Positions 4,401-61,486 of a DNA stretch of 64,000 bases are shown here, in pieces (position 1 is the stretch's first letter; each line of letters starts with the position of its first letter). The position numbers and the translations under genes were made by a program. Source of the DNA: Alloprevotella tannerae ATCC 51259 (lineage in GTDB: Bacteria; Bacteroidota; Bacteroidia; Bacteroidales; Bacteroidaceae); NCBI RefSeq assembly GCF_000159995.1, contig NZ_GG700643.1, positions 468,145 through 532,144 of the forward strand, read 5' to 3'. The notes below the pieces were generated by a model. That model was given only the letters and a program-made list of their open reading frames with translations, made no database searches and was not told where the DNA came from.

Positions 4401-4975
4401 CAGCCGCAAACAGAGACGCGAGCCCTAATGCCCCGGAACAAACGCAACAAACGCCCTTTTCATCGTATAAATCATTCACTTTTAAGCGCACAAATAGGAG
4501 AAAAAACCGGCACGTGCCCACCTGCGACGTTTTTCATCACGAGAATAAATCTTTTTTATCGTGAGATGAAACTCTTTTTATCACGAGAACAAACCTTTGT
4601 CATCACGATGAAAAACACAAACAGTCCATTTTTCAAAAGCAACAACCTAATTCTACGGATAAAAAGCCCCACCCTTTGCACAACGAAATAGCGAACTACG
4701 CCGAAAAACGAACACCAATAAAATGCAAAAACAGGCGGTTTCATCGCATATTAAGCCCTATTTCCTACAAAATAATCTGTACGCAGCCCTCCAACCGACA
4801 GGGCGAAACGAAAAATGGAGAGCAAATCAAAAAAAGGCTTTTCATAGTCGATTATAGTCCGCTTTTTATGAGCAAAGCGTTGCACTTCCCCACTCGATAA
4901 TCGCACGAACGCAAACAGAACCTTTCCTTGGTCGACGGTTGCTACGCGAAATAAGGATAATTCGCGAGTTTTTCC
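4401..4975. other. Intergenic stretch between repeat A and the dxs promoter
   Basis: Holds the family B array described separately (4530-4616). The rest is AT-rich with no supported gene; short open frames have no recognisable content. Confidence 0.6.
4530..4616. repeat. Family B ~22-bp array (locus B1)
   Basis: About four degenerate units with alternating ATCACGAG and ATCGTGAG cores separated by T-rich and AAAC segments. It lies about 130 bases after a family A element. Confidence 0.75.
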
Positions 4976-11602: not shown

Positions 11603-11981
11603 GTATCTTGGCTATCGGCCGGCCTATTTCGCGCCCTGCAAGCGCCATCGGGCCGCGCGGACCTCTCCACGCTGCTTCCGCCTATCGCCGGACTTTTTGC
11701 GTAATGTCCGCCCCGCGCGCCGGATGCTCCGCAGGCCGTTACGGCATTCTTTTTGGGGAGTCAGTAGCACGCATTATGTATCCACGCACAATCGAAAAGG
11801 TTTTGCGCCCCGCTGCACGATGGGCCGCCTCGTTCCCACGTCTGAGGTTTTTCATCGTGATAAAAAAGGTGTGCGCTCGTGATGAAAAAGGTCTGCGCTC
11901 ACGAGCGTAAGTGCTTTTCATCGTGAGCGTAAAGGTAAAAATCGGGATAGCTGCCCATCGCCGACCGGCTTTGCGCGTTTT
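11603..11981. other. Intergenic stretch after gpmI
   Basis: Contains the family B array at 11846-11936. The remainder is GC-rich with no supported gene. Confidence 0.6.
11846..11936. repeat. Family B ~22-bp array (locus B2)
   Basis: Four units in mixed orientation, including GCTCGTGATGAAAAAGG, GCTCACGAGCGTAAG and TTTTCATCGTGAGCGTAAAGG. The opposed orientations allow local hairpins around the CTCACGAG core. Confidence 0.8.
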
Positions 11982-24833: not shown

Positions 24834-25142
24834 CGTATCTCCCTACACGCAGTCGCCCCATTTGTTGTAAAGCAAATCGGGCGGCTGCCGTTTTGGTATC
24901 CTGCCCGTCTAAGCGCAAATCGGCCGCATCAGCTATTGCACCACCAGACATCGATTACGAATGGTTACAAACGCATATAACAGGTCTTCCGCGCATTACA
25001 AACGACAAAATTCTCATACTTAAGACATAAAACTCCTAAATATCAATACGCCCGGTGTTCTAACTGACGCGCCCGCCACATATTAACCCAAACAAACTCA
25101 ATCTAAATTCCAGTCACATCCGACGCCACTCGCCCACCACCT

Positions 25143-25370: not shown

Positions 25371-25464
25371 CATCACGAGCGTAAGACCTTTTCATCGTGA
25401 GCGTACACCTTTGTTCTCACGAGCGTACACCTTTGTTCTCACGATAAAAAACGCTGCCATCACG
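25371..25464. repeat. Family B ~22-bp array (locus B3)
   Basis: Units include CATCACGAGCGTAAGACC, TTCATCGTGAGCGTACACC and two copies of TTGTTCTCACGAGCGTACACC-like sequence. It begins 114 bases after a family A element. Confidence 0.8.
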
Positions 25465-25760
25465 TATTGTGCGAATCGAAATAAAGGTCTACTGCTTAAA
25501 TATCGATACATAATCAGCATATAATGAGCACCAAACAACAAAACGCCCGCCTCGCGCCGCGAACGTAGTCCCCTTACCAAACAGTGACAAAACTTTGAAA
25601 AACCCATTTGCACCCAAACGGCTGACAAGGCCGAAACTGTGGCGCAGGAATCGGATCATAAATATTGCGAATTAAACCCATCTCGCCCTTTTCTCAATTG
25701 TTCTCTGTTAAATAGTATAAAATAACGAGCAAAGACAATGGCCTGTTCGGACGAAAGCTA

Positions 25761-25768
25761 TATCTTTG
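25761..25768 (+). promoter_or_regulatory. -7 element TATCTTTG before the metal-uptake genes
   Basis: Fits TAnnTTTG and lies about 64 bases before the ATG at 25832. No clear -33 box. I saw no recognisable Zur or Fur operator. Confidence 0.58.
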
Positions 25769-25831: not shown

Positions 25832-26155
25832 ATGAGAAAGAGAGAGCACATAAGGCGAATTTACGCGTGGATGTTATTGCTGACATTCGCTTTTATGCTC
25901 ACACTCAAAGGGGCGCACTACCACACGGCAGACTTTCACGCCGACAATCTCGGCAAAATGCAGCAAACAACGGGAGCTACGATTAAAGCATCCTGCGTTG
26001 TCTGCGATTTTGTCTTTCAGAAAGCTACGGCTTTCAAACCTACGGTTTTTGTAAAGCCACTCACATCGATACCGCTCAAACGTTTTGTCTTTGTGATGCA
26101 GACCGTTTACCGCCAAATCTTGTCGGTAAACACCAATTCTCCACCCTTATTCTAA
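25832..26155 (+). CDS. Small membrane-anchored His/Cys protein next to a TonB receptor
   Basis: A 107-residue protein with a basic N-terminus and one membrane segment (about 12-26: WMLLLTFAFMLTL), then a short domain with His29, His31 and His36 and a Cys55-x-x-Cys58 pair (SCVVCDF). These residues could bind a metal ion. I do not know a named family; the context (TonB receptor 223 bases downstream, then a His-rich lipoprotein) suggests a role in metal handling at the cell envelope. This is inference from residues and neighbours. Confidence 0.65.
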   Translation: MRKREHIRRIYAWMLLLTFAFMLTLKGAHYHTADFHADNLGKMQQTTGATIKASCVVCDFVFQKATAFKPTVFVKPLTSIPLKRFVFVMQTVYRQILSVNTNSPPLF

Positions 26156-26377
26156 GTTTATTCTGCTTTCTTGCCGTCTTGCAGCCTTGTCGCTCTTTGC
26201 GGTGCGGGGCTTGTAAGGCCTAAAAGCTACGATGCGCCGGCCGTTTCCAAACGCGCGAATCAAATATTGCGTTGGCAGCAGACGGAAGTCCTTTGCAAGC
26301 GGGCAGAATCCCCCTTATCGGCACTTGTCGATAGGAAGCAAACTTTGTAATCATTTATTTTATCTTACTTTTTACAG

Positions 26378-28717
26378 ATGAACCCTCATAAGTTTCACTA
26401 CTTTCGGGGCCTATTGTTAATCTGTTTGATGGCAGCACAAAACGTGCTTGCACAGCAGTCCGACAATTTTCGCACTACGTCAAAGCCGGCCATACTGGTT
26501 CTTGACAGCGAAACGCGTCAACCGATTCAAGACGCCCTTTTATCCTATGCGCAGTCCACGTTTACGGCAGATTCAACCGGCCTTATCCAACTCCCGTCAG
26601 TGCCGCGCCGACAGGAAATCTTAAAAATATCGGCCCTCGGCTATACGACGCAGGCCCTCCATTGGCAGGATCTGACGCTGAGCGGCGGCCAGCGTATCGT
26701 TACCCTGCGCCCTTACGCCAATAATCTGCGTGAAGCGGTCGTTAGGGGCACAAAAAACGAAGTCTCGGTCAACGCTGTCGCATCGCAAATCAACAGCCGG
26801 ACGATCTCCTCTGCTATGGGTCAATCGCTCGCCTCGCTACTCGAGAAGGTGGGCGGCGTCAGTTCGATACAGACCGGCACGAGTACGGCCAAGCCGGTCA
26901 TACAAGGGATGTATGGCAATCGAATCCTGATGATCAATAACGGCGCGCGGCAGACCGGTCAACAGTGGGGCCTCGATCACGCGCCGGAGATTGACAAAAA
27001 CAGCAGCGCACGCATCCAAGTAGTCAAAGGAGCGGAGGCTGTGCGCTATGGATCGGAGGCGCTCGGCGGCATCATTATCTTAGAACAAAAACCGCTGCCT
27101 TATGGCGAGACGAATATTGGAGGTAGCGTCAGCGGACTCGTAGGCGCGAACGGCCTACGCTACAATGCGGTCGCAACAATCGAAGGTTCGATGCCTTTTC
27201 TCCGCGACTTGGCGTGGCGCGTGCAGGGCACGTATCTGAATTCCGGCGATGCGCGGACGGCAGATTACGTTCTGAACAACACGGGTTACAGGGAACAAGA
27301 CGTGAGTCTGAACCTCGGCTATCGCCACGGCCCCCTGCGCCTCGAAACATCGTACAGCCTCTTCGATCATAAAGAGGGCGTGATGATGAGTTCCCAACTG
27401 GGTAGCGAGGATTTACTACGGGAGCGCATCGAAACGGGACGCCCGACGTACATACTGCCGTTTTCGCGCCACATCCTCTATCCTTATCATCGCGTCGTAC
27501 ACCATACGGCCATCGGAAAAGCGTTTTTGGACGGTGGAAAGTGGGGACATTTCTTCTGGCAGACAGCCTTTCAAAACGACATTCGCAAGGAATTTCGCGT
27601 AAGACGAATGAATCTCTCCCACATTCCCGCAGTAAGTATGACGCTAACTTCGTTTCAGAACCAGCTAAAATGGACTAAAGATTACGTCAATTGGCAATCG
27701 GAGGCCGGCATCTCGTACTTGCACATTCGCAATAAGAACGAAGCGGGCACGGGCGTGGTTTCGCTCATCCCCAATTACACGGAATACGATGCGGGGGCTT
27801 TTCTCATCCAAAAATATCGGAAAGGCATTTGGAGCGGTGAGGCCGGCGTGCGCTTCGATCACCAACAGACGCGCGCCGCGGGCTATGATTATACCGGAAA
27901 ACTCTATACCGGAGATCACAAATTCAGCAATCTTTCCTACAACTTGGGCTTTCACGTGCAGCCATCCAACGCTTTTTCGCTGACGTCCAACCTTGGTTTG
28001 GCTTGGCGGGCACCTCACGTTTACGAACTCTACAGTAATGGCAACGAGTTGGGATCGGGAATGTTTGTCGTCGGAGATGCGAATATGAAGTCGGAGCAAA
28101 GCACGAAATGGATCGTATCTGCCGACTACCAGAGCAAGCTTTTTGGCCTCAAAGCTGAAGCCTTTGTGCAATGGATCAACGGTTATATTTACGACGAGCC
28201 CACGCATCAGTTTATAACGGTTATTTCCGGCTCCTATCCGCTTTTCCAATACAAGCAAACCGACGCATTTTTCCGCGGTTTCGATGCTGCTTTCGATTTG
28301 CGGCCTCTGAAATTCCTTCATTACCATCTGCAAACGTCGCTGATTTGGGCCAACGAGCGCAAGACGCGGGCTTACTTGCCCTACATTCCCTCTTGGCGCG
28401 TGGATCAAGAAGTCGGGCTGAGCGACATCAAGTGGGGAAAGACGGCACCTTGGATCAGTCTGCGCCACCGCTTTGTCGCAAAACAGCGGCGCTTTAATCC
28501 GGCCAGCGATTTGGTTAATTTCACGCCGCCGGCCTACCATCTTTTTGGCGTCGAAGCAGGTGCGGAATGGGCACTCGGCGGGCGGCAAAAGCTGCGCCTT
28601 TCGCTCACGGTCGACAACCTCTTTAATAAGCTTTACAAGGAGTACACCAACCGCTCGCGTTACTATGCTCACGATATGGGGCGCGACGTTCGCTTGCAGG
28701 TCAACTGGCTCTTTTAG
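26378..28717 (+). CDS. TonB-dependent outer-membrane receptor, ZnuD-like
   Basis: A 779-residue outer-membrane receptor. Order: signal peptide (about 1-25), a carboxypeptidase-like regulatory domain (about 35-105: LDSETRQPIQDALLSYA), a plug domain (about 120-235) and a 22-strand barrel ending in the outer-membrane signature with C-terminal Phe (VNWLF). The plug segment KPVIQGMYGNRILMINNG followed by WGLDHAPEID resembles ZnuD-type zinc receptors, whose plug has a similar 'GNR...DHA.AID' pattern. Flanking His-rich proteins support metal uptake, zinc being the best guess; haem or another metal complex is not excluded. Confidence 0.85.
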   Translation: MNPHKFHYFRGLLLICLMAAQNVLAQQSDNFRTTSKPAILVLDSETRQPIQDALLSYAQSTFTADSTGLIQLPSVPRRQEILKISALGYTTQALHWQDLTLSGGQRIVTLRPYANNLREAVVRGTKNEVSVNAVASQINSRTISSAMGQSLASLLEKVGGVSSIQTGTSTAKPVIQGMYGNRILMINNGARQTGQQWGLDHAPEIDKNSSARIQVVKGAEAVRYGSEALGGIIILEQKPLPYGETNIGGSVSGLVGANGLRYNAVATIEGSMPFLRDLAWRVQGTYLNSGDARTADYVLNNTGYREQDVSLNLGYRHGPLRLETSYSLFDHKEGVMMSSQLGSEDLLRERIETGRPTYILPFSRHILYPYHRVVHHTAIGKAFLDGGKWGHFFWQTAFQNDIRKEFRVRRMNLSHIPAVSMTLTSFQNQLKWTKDYVNWQSEAGISYLHIRNKNEAGTGVVSLIPNYTEYDAGAFLIQKYRKGIWSGEAGVRFDHQQTRAAGYDYTGKLYTGDHKFSNLSYNLGFHVQPSNAFSLTSNLGLAWRAPHVYELYSNGNELGSGMFVVGDANMKSEQSTKWIVSADYQSKLFGLKAEAFVQWINGYIYDEPTHQFITVISGSYPLFQYKQTDAFFRGFDAAFDLRPLKFLHYHLQTSLIWANERKTRAYLPYIPSWRVDQEVGLSDIKWGKTAPWISLRHRFVAKQRRFNPASDLVNFTPPAYHLFGVEAGAEWALGGRQKLRLSLTVDNLFNKLYKEYTNRSRYYAHDMGRDVRLQVNWLF

Positions 28718-28761
28718 ACAAAAAACCACATACAATAATCATTTTATAAACACAGAGAATT

Positions 28762-29781
28762 ATGAAACGTAATGCAATCAAACTAATCTCGGCGGCCGTG
28801 TTCGCCCTCTTTTTCGCCGTAACTTTCACGGCTTGTGGCAATGATCCGGTCACACCCCCCAATCCTATCGAAGAGAAGGGTCACGAAGATCCTACGAAGA
28901 TGGTGATTGAACTCTACGAATGTCACATGCACGCCGACTGGAACAAGATCGACGTGGAAGGAGGTGCTCATCAGGACCCCGAAACTAAGGCAAAGTATCT
29001 GAAAAAGGTGCAAGAAATCGCCTTCGAGAACAAGGAAGGAAAAGGCTGGGGCTATGCTGACGGCAGCCAGAAGTCGTTCTTCGTGCGTCAGTCGGCCGAT
29101 TATCATACCGGCAGCAATTTTACGCCGGCCCCCGTCTATCTTTTGTTCATCAAATATTACGATAAGAAGGGACAACTTATGAACAATCAATTCATAGAAG
29201 GCGGTCAGGATCGCCTGCATCAGCACTATTTCACCATCTCCAACGCAACGGAGTTGATGACCGGCGCAGCTTTGGCCGACGGCACTCAGACTACGAACTA
29301 CATTGACTATAAATATACGGACACAACGCCTTGGGATAAAACGCACCACAGCGGCGAAGCGGAAATTACGGGCCGCTCCAATCCGATAGGACTCAAAGGC
29401 GCAATGCGTTTCTTAAAGAATCGCGTAAAGTTTGACCTGCGCATACAGCTCTGGCACGCATTCAAAGGCAAGAAAGATCCGGCTGCGAGCGACTTCGACC
29501 CATTCTACAAGCGCTCGGCTTTCAGCCAGGCTTTCGGAACTTCGGATATTAACGTCATCGTGCCCATCGTCGTTTACGCAAGTCGCGAAGAATACATTGA
29601 CGGACTTGAAAGCAGCACGGATGTAAGCAAAGTGCCCGAAAACAGCTACGATGCAGCCGGCAACGCACTCATACAAGCGATCATGAAGGCCTTTAACCTG
29701 ACTTGGACGGAGGCTTTGACCGACTATCAGAAGTTTATTTGGGACGACAGCGATGGTGAATCAGGCCACGTATGGCTCTAA
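28762..29781 (+). CDS. His-rich surface or periplasmic lipoprotein
   Basis: A 339-residue lipoprotein: hydrophobic leader and lipobox with Cys25 (FTAC). The mature part has metal-ligand-like clusters: E53-C-H-M-H57, HQHYF in the middle and a THHSGEAE segment. It starts 44 bases after the TonB receptor and ends at a strong terminator, so it belongs to the same unit. It may pass metal to the receptor or scavenge it at the surface. No named family recognised with confidence. Confidence 0.72.
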   Translation: MKRNAIKLISAAVFALFFAVTFTACGNDPVTPPNPIEEKGHEDPTKMVIELYECHMHADWNKIDVEGGAHQDPETKAKYLKKVQEIAFENKEGKGWGYADGSQKSFFVRQSADYHTGSNFTPAPVYLLFIKYYDKKGQLMNNQFIEGGQDRLHQHYFTISNATELMTGAALADGTQTTNYIDYKYTDTTPWDKTHHSGEAEITGRSNPIGLKGAMRFLKNRVKFDLRIQLWHAFKGKKDPAASDFDPFYKRSAFSQAFGTSDINVIVPIVVYASREEYIDGLESSTDVSKVPENSYDAAGNALIQAIMKAFNLTWTEALTDYQKFIWDDSDGESGHVWL

Positions 29782-29822
29782 TTAAAAGACGGCAAGCCCA
29801 CTGAGCGCTGCCCGACGTAAAG

Positions 29823-29871
29823 TCGGCCCCGTGTTGCTCTCATTCAGCAGGCAACGGGGGCCGATTTTTTT
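29823..29871 (+). terminator. Intrinsic terminator of the metal-uptake genes
   Basis: TCGGCCCCGT-GTTGC pairs with GCAAC-GGGGGCCGA (right arm ends at 29864), followed by TTTTTTT. Confidence 0.88.
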
Positions 29872-30126
29872 ATGCGCGGTATGGCATTCGCGATGCACTC
29901 CTTTCGCCTTCGCGACCTTGCTCTCGTGATAAAAAAGGTTTGCGCTCACGAGAAAAAAGGTTTCAGCTCGTGATGAAAAAGGTTTACGCTCACGAGCGTA
30001 AAGGCCGTAAGCGCATCGAAGGCCTTCGCAAAAGCTGTGCGAGACGTTCGCTTTATGGGTCGGCGTACGCGGACAAAGGCATCAGCGTAAGCAAAAAATC
30101 AGATGCTCTCCACTTTAAGCACCACG
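29872..30126. other. Intergenic stretch between convergent units
   Basis: Holds the family B array at 29921-30005. No supported gene. Confidence 0.6.
29921..30005. repeat. Family B ~22-bp array (locus B4)
   Basis: Four units: CTCGTGATAAAAAAGG, GCTCACGAGAAAAAAGG, GCTCGTGATGAAAAAGG, GCTCACGAGCGTAAAGG, about 22 bases apart with alternating CTCACGAG and CTCGTGAT cores. Confidence 0.85.
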
Positions 30127-40959: not shown

Positions 40960-41328
40960 ATATTTCTGCCCACAGCTCTGTTTCGTATTTTTTTGTCGGT
41001 CATCGCCTTGCGTCCGCGCCCGACCGGCGGCTTGGGGAGCGGCCTTTTGTCGCGAAGCGCTTTGTGCGGCATACGTCGCAAAAAGTGCCATTTCATCGAG
41101 GATTAGCCTTAATCCGCCAATGCTGAAATGGCGAATATTCCGCGGCTGTTTTTCCTCATAAACTCGCCCTTTACAGCCCCAAAATATGCCGGCCGTACCT
41201 GCTTGGATTGGACTATCTTTTAGACCGTCGCATAATTGACCGACGGGCGGGCCGCAGCGCTACTGTCCGGCCCATTATTTCACGCGCTTACTCCCCCAAA
41301 AGAAGCCCCATATCCCATCCGCTTCATT

Positions 41329-41439
41329 TGCGCTCACGAGCGTAAGCAATTTTTATCACGAGCGCAAACTCTTTTTATCGTGAGCGCAAACTCTTTTTAT
41401 CGTGAGCGCAAACCTTTTTTCTCGTGATAAAAAAGGTTC
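41329..41439. repeat. Family B ~22-bp array (locus B5)
   Basis: The most regular array: GCTCACGAGCGTAAGC, then units of CTTTTTATC(A/G)(C/T)GAGCGCAAAC repeated at 22-base spacing, closed by an opposite-orientation CTCGTGATAAAAAAGG unit. Confidence 0.88.
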
Positions 41440-48223: not shown

Positions 48224-48704
48224 TTCGCCGTCTCGTTGGCTGATGTCTCGCCGCCGGCGGCTGAGTTCGGCGCGTCGTGATCGACGATTCGTGCGCCTTG
48301 CGTCGGCTGTTGGTTTGCGCCTTTACTGATTAAACGTAAGTCAATGGCTTTCGTCAACGAATTTAACAAAGTTTTTAATTCTAACCCTTCATCTACGCTT
48401 TGGGGCGCCCTGATTTTTAATGCTGCAGAACGATTTTTCCCCGCTCAAGGCAAGCAAGGGCGGCGCCTCGCGTGCGGTTTCAAGGCGCTGATGGCTCACA
48501 TTACGCCGCCTCGAGTTGATCAAAGCAACAAGAAGGGCCGAACTTTTGAGTGTACGCTCACGATAAAAAAGGTCTGCGCTCGTGAGAACAAAGGTGTGCG
48601 CTCACGATAAAAAGGGTCTACGCTCACGAGCGTACAACTTCTGCGCCAAACTTCAGCGTGGTAAAACCTATAGCGTGCCGGTTTTTATCGGGACTTTCCC
48701 GTGC
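48224..48704. other. Intergenic stretch upstream of the second sigma gene
   Basis: Contains the family B array at 48551-48636. No gene supported. Confidence 0.55.
48551..48636. repeat. Family B ~22-bp array (locus B6)
   Basis: Four units: GTACGCTCACGATAAAAAAGG, GCTCGTGAGAACAAAGG, GCTCACGATAAAAAGGG, GCTCACGAGCGTAC, about 22 bases apart. Confidence 0.82.
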
Positions 48705-61398: not shown

Positions 61399-61486
61399 AT
61401 TTTCACCGTGGTGAAAAATACGTACCCTCGTGAGCGTACAACCTTTTTATCGTGATGAAAAACCTTTCCGCTCACGATGAAAAAGC
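61399..61486. repeat. Family B ~22-bp array (locus B7)
   Basis: Degenerate units TTTCACCGTGGTGAAAAATACG, CCTCGTGAGCGTACAACC, TTTTTATCGTGATGAAAAACC and GCTCACGATGAAAAAGC. Confidence 0.75.

Follow-up and report, generated by a model that had tools for sequence, protein, structure and literature searches.

In the genome of Alloprevotella tannerae ATCC 51259, we analysed a stretch of 64,000 nucleotides (nt), called the window hereafter, in which three consecutive genes of the + strand encode a small protein of 107 amino acids, a TonB-dependent receptor of 779 amino acids and a lipoprotein of 339 amino acids. In our reading, the first of these products is probably a leader peptide that responds to metal and whose arrest during translation would control the TonB metal receptor and the His-containing lipoprotein encoded downstream. 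We give this reading a probability of about 0.72. It draws on sequence and on analogy, because the distance from a CxxC motif to a C-terminal xxPP motif is fixed and the short gene stands before a long gap, as in CruR of Bordetella pertussis.

The initial annotation of this locus, made from the letters alone, had presented an envelope metal-uptake unit in which metal would be relayed from a surface lipoprotein to the receptor and on to the small protein in the inner membrane. Its description of the genes holds: the reading frames follow one another and end at a single terminator, a hairpin; the small protein has three histidines and a CxxC after a hydrophobic stretch; and the lipoprotein, with lipobox Cys25, contains ECHMH (residues 53-57) and HQHYF (153-157). 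An uptake unit is still likely, but the relay itself is unsupported, as discussed below with the other alternatives.

Conserved motifs of the small protein and their spacing

The hydrophobic stretch of the small protein covers residues 10-25 as read from the sequence, and AlphaFold2 predicts a helix over residues 2-37, most confidently over 1-30. H29, H31, H36 and C55/C58 come after this stretch, and one more histidine, H6, before it. Only H29, C55, C58, P104 and P105 are invariant among 33 aligned small proteins, the rest of the chain being poorly conserved. No Pfam or NCBIfam family matches the protein up to an E-value of 1.

In the window protein, the tetrapeptide NSPP begins 43 residues past CxxC and ends 2 residues before the C-terminus. 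This distance can be measured in 53 of 56 distinct homologues (the protein of locus L012 is truncated, and those of L125 and L126 have an incomplete CxxC). It is 43 residues in 37 of them, 44 in 13, 42 in one and 47 in two, so that 50 of the 53 fall at 43 or 44. The two prolines are present in all 53 and lie 1-7 residues from the C-terminus in 52. The spacing between His and Cys, by comparison, is variable (19-50 residues, standard deviation 4.9, against 0.9 for Cys to PP in 49 aligned sequences). The residues before the prolines differ among homologues: RAPP occurs 21 times, HSPP 18, HAPP, NSPP and RGPP four times each and KGPP twice, which puts Arg at the first position in 25 of 53 proteins and His, Asn or Lys in 28. 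The homologues found next to receptors, mostly of the H/N-S/A-P-P type, and those found across the order, of the RAPP type, align over nearly their full length (hhalign E-value 1e-20), and by this alignment the two sets are one family.

Co-occurrence of the three genes

To collect relatives of the receptor, we aligned three receptor sequences and scanned a single genome of each species with this alignment; we kept the best 80 of 150 and sorted them by identity to the window receptor into 35 close loci (at least 43%) and 45 distant ones (at most 36%). Since these loci were picked by their receptor alone, they provide a fair test of co-occurrence. The close set spans Hoylesella, Segatella, Hallella, Prevotella, Alloprevotella, Bacteroides, Porphyromonas and metagenome-assembled genomes; the small gene lies upstream of the receptor gene in 32 of its 35 loci, and a lipoprotein gene downstream in 34. 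One locus, L035, has neither, but its contig begins just 5' of the receptor gene, and the upstream side cannot be judged. The neighbouring genes vary from locus to locus; therefore, the unit stays together in changing surroundings. With the same gene order in many genomes, the arrangement exceeds chance, and the check proposed in the initial annotation, whether small protein and receptor co-occur, gave a positive answer.

Among the 45 distant loci, the small gene is found in only two (L042 and L043), while 29 have downstream matches to the lipoprotein profile with E-values of 1e-5 or better. As a control, an upstream open reading frame (ORF) that ends in PP but has no match to the CxxC family was seen in four distant loci besides L042 and L043 (L063, L065, L066 and L087); a PP-ending ORF about 0.9 kb upstream of the receptor gene in L027 was left out of this count. 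The two Olivibacter loci, L042 and L043, consist of two adjoining convergent pairs of small gene and receptor gene, one on each strand.

A search of the order with a profile of 33 sequences identified the small protein in 22 of 148 genomes, including the window's own. A TonB receptor gene directly follows the small gene in 20 of these 22 cases, or in 19 of 21 without the window. In the genus of the window, the profile matched 18 of 58 genomes; among the 17 other members with a match, we examined seven loci, five of them newly seen, and all seven have a receptor next to the small gene. The receptors found in this position are heterogeneous, and they score very differently with the profile of the window receptor. 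Under the same search settings, clear lipoprotein matches were confined to 3 of the 148 genomes, versus 22 for the small protein; nine of the 12 genomes with any match gave weak and short ones (E-value 9e-5 or worse), which mostly cover the signal peptide and which we do not regard as relatives. As the lipoprotein is present in fewer genomes than the small gene with its receptor, the latter two are the constant pair, and by this distribution the lipoprotein is an addition within one receptor clade.

These sets overlap in part and the counts are not fully independent, because some small proteins are shared: that of L026 is identical to G005, and L162 equals L024, L106 equals L015, L109 equals L038 and L020 equals L025; L110 is the L009 gene. 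L162 belongs to a genome of the window's genus, and its small protein is thus identical to that of Alloprevotella sp. OH1205_COT-284 (L024). Searches with single sequences under-counted, finding the small protein in 3 of 41 genomes, and a contig scan for the lipoprotein confirmed none.

Relation to known leader peptides and proposed control

The closest published parallel is CruR (bp2923) of B. pertussis, a copper-sensing leader with CxxC and RAPP 45 residues apart, encoded 162 bp before a TonB receptor gene (PMC9426467). Acting through the CxxC of CruR, copper relieves the arrest at RAPP and allows Rho to terminate transcription (PMC9426467), and CruR was shown to arrest translation in vitro (PMC12992588). 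The two systems are alike in several respects: the first of three genes encodes a small protein, exported or presumably so, and the second a TonB receptor, CxxC is combined with a C-terminal xxPP, and spacing (45 versus 43-44 residues) and gap (162 versus 222 nt) are similar (PMC9426467). The initial annotation knew of no named system with all three components. The cruR-bfrG-bp2921 operon is a similar three-gene arrangement, yet its third gene does differ, encoding a PepSY_TM protein where the window has a lipoprotein (PMC9426467). Further differences are the absence of a DUF2946 match in the window protein, NSPP in place of RAPP, and the conserved His before CxxC.

CutF and CopL, on which the following gene depends in cis, are comparable to the small protein as short leaders with a metal-type motif (PMC9973294). 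CutF, from the cutFOG operon of Rhodobacter capsulatus, has a C-terminal proline motif too, but it controls an oxidase rather than uptake, and in the direction opposite to that of CruR: expression is raised with copper, by way of a stem-loop over the Shine-Dalgarno site (PMC9973294). CutF-like proteins were also counted in Bacteroidota (40% after normalisation, 19% otherwise), and over the whole set of these proteins, resistance-nodulation-division (RND) efflux and TonB genes occur as neighbours (PMC9973294). Leaders ending in RAPP or RGPP have been described for TonB-related genes across Gram-negatives, though the copper-related class of leaders in that study was reportedly not found in Bacteroidota (PMC12992588). 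The leader class is therefore known, and members of the window family may be among the published CutF-like or RAPP leaders; because CutF-like proteins of Bacteroidota have already been counted in print, we regard the window unit as a variant and not as a new class. Our literature searches returned no study on the Prevotella-type motif lacking Arg, on the lipoprotein as a partner or, for these bacteria, on the metal, and none in which we recognised the three-gene unit among publications on zinc, ZnuD, Prevotella and Bacteroides.

The mechanism we envisage is as follows. While the ribosome makes the small protein, its hydrophobic start would engage the export machinery, and the ribosome would stall at the C-terminal NSPP, as the motif and its spacing suggest. 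At that point, the His/Cys site would have left the ribosome and might also lie beyond the membrane, where it could bind metal and thereby change the stall. Whether the ribosome is stalled or released would then decide transcription or translation across the gap into the receptor and lipoprotein genes; in a CruR-like system, low metal would lead to stalling and to high receptor output. The receptor would import the metal or a metal complex with the help of the lipoprotein at the surface, as family, place and His motifs suggest.

Several observations weigh against this proposal. Two Porphyromonas loci, L027 and L028, have a receptor and lipoproteins with no recognisable small gene; in L118/L138, the small gene is followed by a 699-amino-acid protein with no family assignment, and in L126/L146, it lies after the receptor gene. 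The profiles used to collect the homologues include the C-terminal motif, and a constant spacing is consequently favoured. Matches to DUF2946 (Pfam PF11162) are lacking in the window protein and in all 148 genomes of the order, and are weak in 2 of the 33 aligned homologues (best E-value 0.1) and present in one of 16 order-wide homologues (E-value 0.0038); since the window protein is unmatched and few relatives match even weakly, we do not file it in that family. The NSPP of the window lacks the Arg of RAPP, and changes of Arg or Ala in the RAPP of CruR abolished downstream expression (PMC9426467). HAPP in another leader supports arrest, and Bacteroidota leaders of sec genes are reported to end in N-S-P or N-A-P (PMC10987492).

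The two gaps of the unit are uneven, 222 nt before the receptor and 44 nt before the lipoprotein gene, and in 31 loci including the window, the first gap ranges from 71 to 363 nt with a median of 201 (the receptor start being taken as the first in-frame ATG). In the window, where alone folding was computed, the structure is modest: the gap before the receptor gene folds at -69.9 kcal/mol, with a z-score of only about -2.1 relative to mononucleotide shuffles, and Rfam gave no match up to an E-value of 0.5 between positions 25,000 and 30,200. No intrinsic terminator is shared in the gap, terminator-like structures occurring in 2 of 32 loci (L008, L009, L012, L042, L043 and L044 are left out of this count and of the skew counts below), and a conserved intrinsic attenuator was discarded as a candidate. 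A C-rich stretch resembling the rut region of CruR is present. It contains more C than G in 31 of 32 loci, and in all 32 its skew is above that of the first 900 nt of the receptor gene, but the skew exceeds expectation from codon-resampled controls in just 17 of 32 (mean z-score -0.02). Amino-acid composition fully explains it, so it gives no support for Rho, and we dropped it as evidence.

A second family with leader-like features, DUF6769 (PF20558), matches 30 of the 148 genomes of the order, 25 of them above cut-off, and none in the source genome. Its members have a hydrophobic start, HHHH, a Cys and a C-terminal LRAPP or LRGPP. We fetched the neighbourhoods in 10 of the 30 matching genomes (L147-L156) and found the gene directly before CzcB-like and CzcA-like efflux genes in all ten, two of these pairs being checked against NCBIfam. 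DUF6769 proteins are probably leader peptides of efflux operons. They share with the window family the hydrophobic start, His run, Cys, C-terminal proline motif and position directly before metal transport genes; they differ in preceding efflux rather than uptake genes and, in eight aligned sequences, in having no fixed distance from Cys to PP. Profile alignment of the two families is confined to the helix and His run, and their homology is supported over that part only. A literature search for DUF6769 listed one paper, on Salmonella secretion effectors.

The features of the unit are listed in Table 1. The consensus of the -7 box of Bacteroidota promoters is TAnnTTTG; the element 5' of the small gene is likely to be such a box, and relatives L007, L010, L012, L033 and L041 also have TATCTTTG ahead of this gene. 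The terminator was not among the results of a simple terminator scan, probably because of unpaired bases in its stem.

Table 1. Features of the three-gene unit, in coordinates of the window
Feature	Position	Strand	Remarks
Likely Bacteroidota-type promoter -7 box, TATATCTTTG	25759-25768	+	read from sequence
Small protein, 107 amino acids; hydrophobic N-terminal helix, H29/H31/H36, C55xxC58, C-terminal NSPP; putative arrest leader	25832-26155	+	
CxxC codons, C55-C58	25994-26005	+	both Cys invariant in 33/33 aligned sequences
N-S-P-P codons, residues 102-105; putative arrest motif	26135-26146	+	PP invariant in 33/33
222-nt gap between small gene and receptor gene; proposed site of attenuation or translation control	26156-26377	+	
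TonB-dependent receptor, 779 amino acids; plug, barrel, weak N-terminal carboxypeptidase-regulatory-like region	26378-28717	+	
Lipoprotein, 339 amino acids; Cys25, His 55/57, 70, 153/155; predicted fold mostly beta, helices at the C-terminus	28762-29781	+	
Intrinsic terminator, hairpin and T-run	29819-29868	+	-29.7 kcal/mol, z -5.9

Across the window, a 22-nt periodic element, CTCRYGA-NNN-AAAAGG (variants CTCGTGA and CTCACGA), forms arrays at 4528-4609, 11854-11935, 25386-25453, 29923-30004, 41325-41436, 48557-48616 and 61463-61486. With at most two mismatches, it has 31 matches in the window versus 7.5 expected, and two of the arrays are inverted arms that bracket the three genes. A two-unit pattern occurs 43 times in the source genome, its reversed control not at all, and it is absent from the 24 relatives searched.

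Receptor, lipoprotein and the nature of the metal

By its plug (PF07715) and barrel (PF00593), both above the Pfam cut-off, with PF13715 below it, the 779-amino-acid protein is a TonB-dependent receptor in general, but it reaches the cut-off of no specific NCBIfam family. The best profile is that of TonB-hemin receptors (TIGR01785, 140.9 bits for a cut-off of 316.85); ZnuD (NF038289, 75.6 versus 950) and TonB-copper (TIGR01778, 72.1 versus 472.45) score lower, and the term 'ZnuD-like' used in the initial annotation is accordingly approximate. The nearest sequences with solved structures are OprC (6FOM and others), then ZnuD (4RDR). The Cys/Met stretch in the plug of OprC, which we take to be its copper site, is absent and replaced by QQWGLDHAP. 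This segment carries an Asp-His pair, D200-H201, that aligns with the plug Asp-His of ZnuD, where we take D99, H100, E340 and H499 to be the zinc ligands; in the alignment, D200 is found in 30 and H201 in all of 33 receptors, whereas the position of the ZnuD loop His is Glu in 26 of 33 and E340 is not aligned. The full alignment covers 77 of the 80 relatives; among the 35 close ones, it covers 32. H201 is likewise conserved in all 45 distant receptors, and hence does not single out the window receptor clade.

In its best segment, the window receptor is closer to receptors of other genera (68% identity with Segatella buccae, 67% with Hoylesella pleuritidis) than to one of its own genus (53%, L026), and for this reason horizontal transfer of the three-gene unit is possible. 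A second unit in Prevotella, Porphyromonas and Bacteroides has a related TonB receptor, longer lipoproteins and usually a protein of 350-370 amino acids, which is DUF4876 in the two checked (L047, L052, L058, L063-L066, L069, L071, L073-L080, L083, L085, L086 and L088). In L065 and L066, the upstream ORF has a His-rich middle and a C-terminal LRAPP, without CxxC.

The lipoprotein matches no Pfam or NCBIfam family up to an E-value of 1. Cys25, Q154, Y183, D187, G213 and F217 are invariant among 36 aligned members, HQHFF-type motifs are widespread in the family, and most longer members retain the HxH at 55/57. Short tandem copies occur, for instance in L007, L018, L022 and L026-L028, as do double-copy proteins of about 550 amino acids (L023, L029-L032, L037 and L049). 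The AlphaFold2 model is confident (mean predicted local distance difference test, pLDDT, 89.8), but Foldseek against the PDB and a search of BFVD found nothing at E-values of 0.001 or less, and the best VIA-align hit (Z 6.6 over 107 residues) is in a range common for that tool. We read no function from the fold; the lack of a convincing match does not prove a new one. Place and His motifs suggest a surface metal catcher.

Is the small protein itself a carrier? As a stable protein anchored in the inner membrane by its N-terminal hydrophobic helix, it would expose three His and CxxC to the periplasm and could be the last station of the relay from lipoprotein through receptor, for which its strong co-occurrence with the receptor would also be natural. 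We consider this improbable: what the protein conserves, a hydrophobic start, His, CxxC and a fixed distance of 43-44 residues to a C-terminal PP, is a regulatory nascent-chain design, and a carrier leaves unexplained this distance, the place before a long gap and the low conservation elsewhere. Moreover, most genomes in which small gene and receptor are paired lack the lipoprotein. AlphaFold2 is confident for the N-terminal helix only and gives no folded metal domain (pLDDT 67.5, predicted template modelling score 0.32), although so poor a model proves little. A different cargo, such as heme, cobalamin or another chelate, would leave the regulatory part of our reading intact. The hemin profile ranks first for the receptor, and FecCD-type ATP-binding cassette (ABC) importer genes, which would suit heme or another chelate, follow the unit in two Porphyromonas loci (L038, 11675-13873, and L039, 11680-13708), with permeases closest to BtuC but below cut-off. 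We nevertheless hold such a cargo to be rather unlikely, as all specific receptor profiles stay far below their cut-offs, the nearest solved plugs are those of OprC and ZnuD, the ABC genes were seen in these two loci only, about 0.5 kb past the lipoprotein gene, in a scan that covered part of the neighbours of the other loci, and a CxxC/His sensor suits a metal ion.

Returning to the metal-responsive leader, the metal could be copper, imported and sensed by the unit as in Bordetella, a variant that we judge possible but doubtful. CruR senses copper through CxxC (PMC9426467), OprC is the top PDB match and the ECHMH of the lipoprotein combines Cys, Met and His. Set against this, the OprC stretch has given way to a segment with the ZnuD-type Asp-His, and the genome also has a gene for a ZnuA-family protein, which lies outside the window, some 0.9 kb past its right end. 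Further, the source genome (2.59 Mb, 99.98% complete) has no COX1-family oxidase, by a search that was positive in 8 of 14 known genomes used as control and that did not extend to other copper enzymes; it thus shows no obvious respiratory need for copper. The missing oxidase, the Asp-His of the plug and the absence of the OprC site slightly favour zinc.

Taken to its full extent, our proposal is a leader sensing zinc or another metal than copper, which would stall at an Arg-less (H/N)-(S/A)-P-P placed 43-44 residues from its His/Cys site and, in anaerobic Bacteroidota, control a TonB receptor together with surface lipoproteins of a new metal-binding family, with sister leaders of the DUF6769 family acting likewise on efflux pumps; in this complete form, it is only tentative. 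If true, sensing by a nascent chain would control outer-membrane metal uptake in Prevotella, Bacteroides and Porphyromonas, arrest motifs would include more than RAPP and RGPP, and a role could be assigned to a lipoprotein family that is as yet unclassified. What was vaguely a small His/Cys protein would become a directly testable set of point mutations and reporters.

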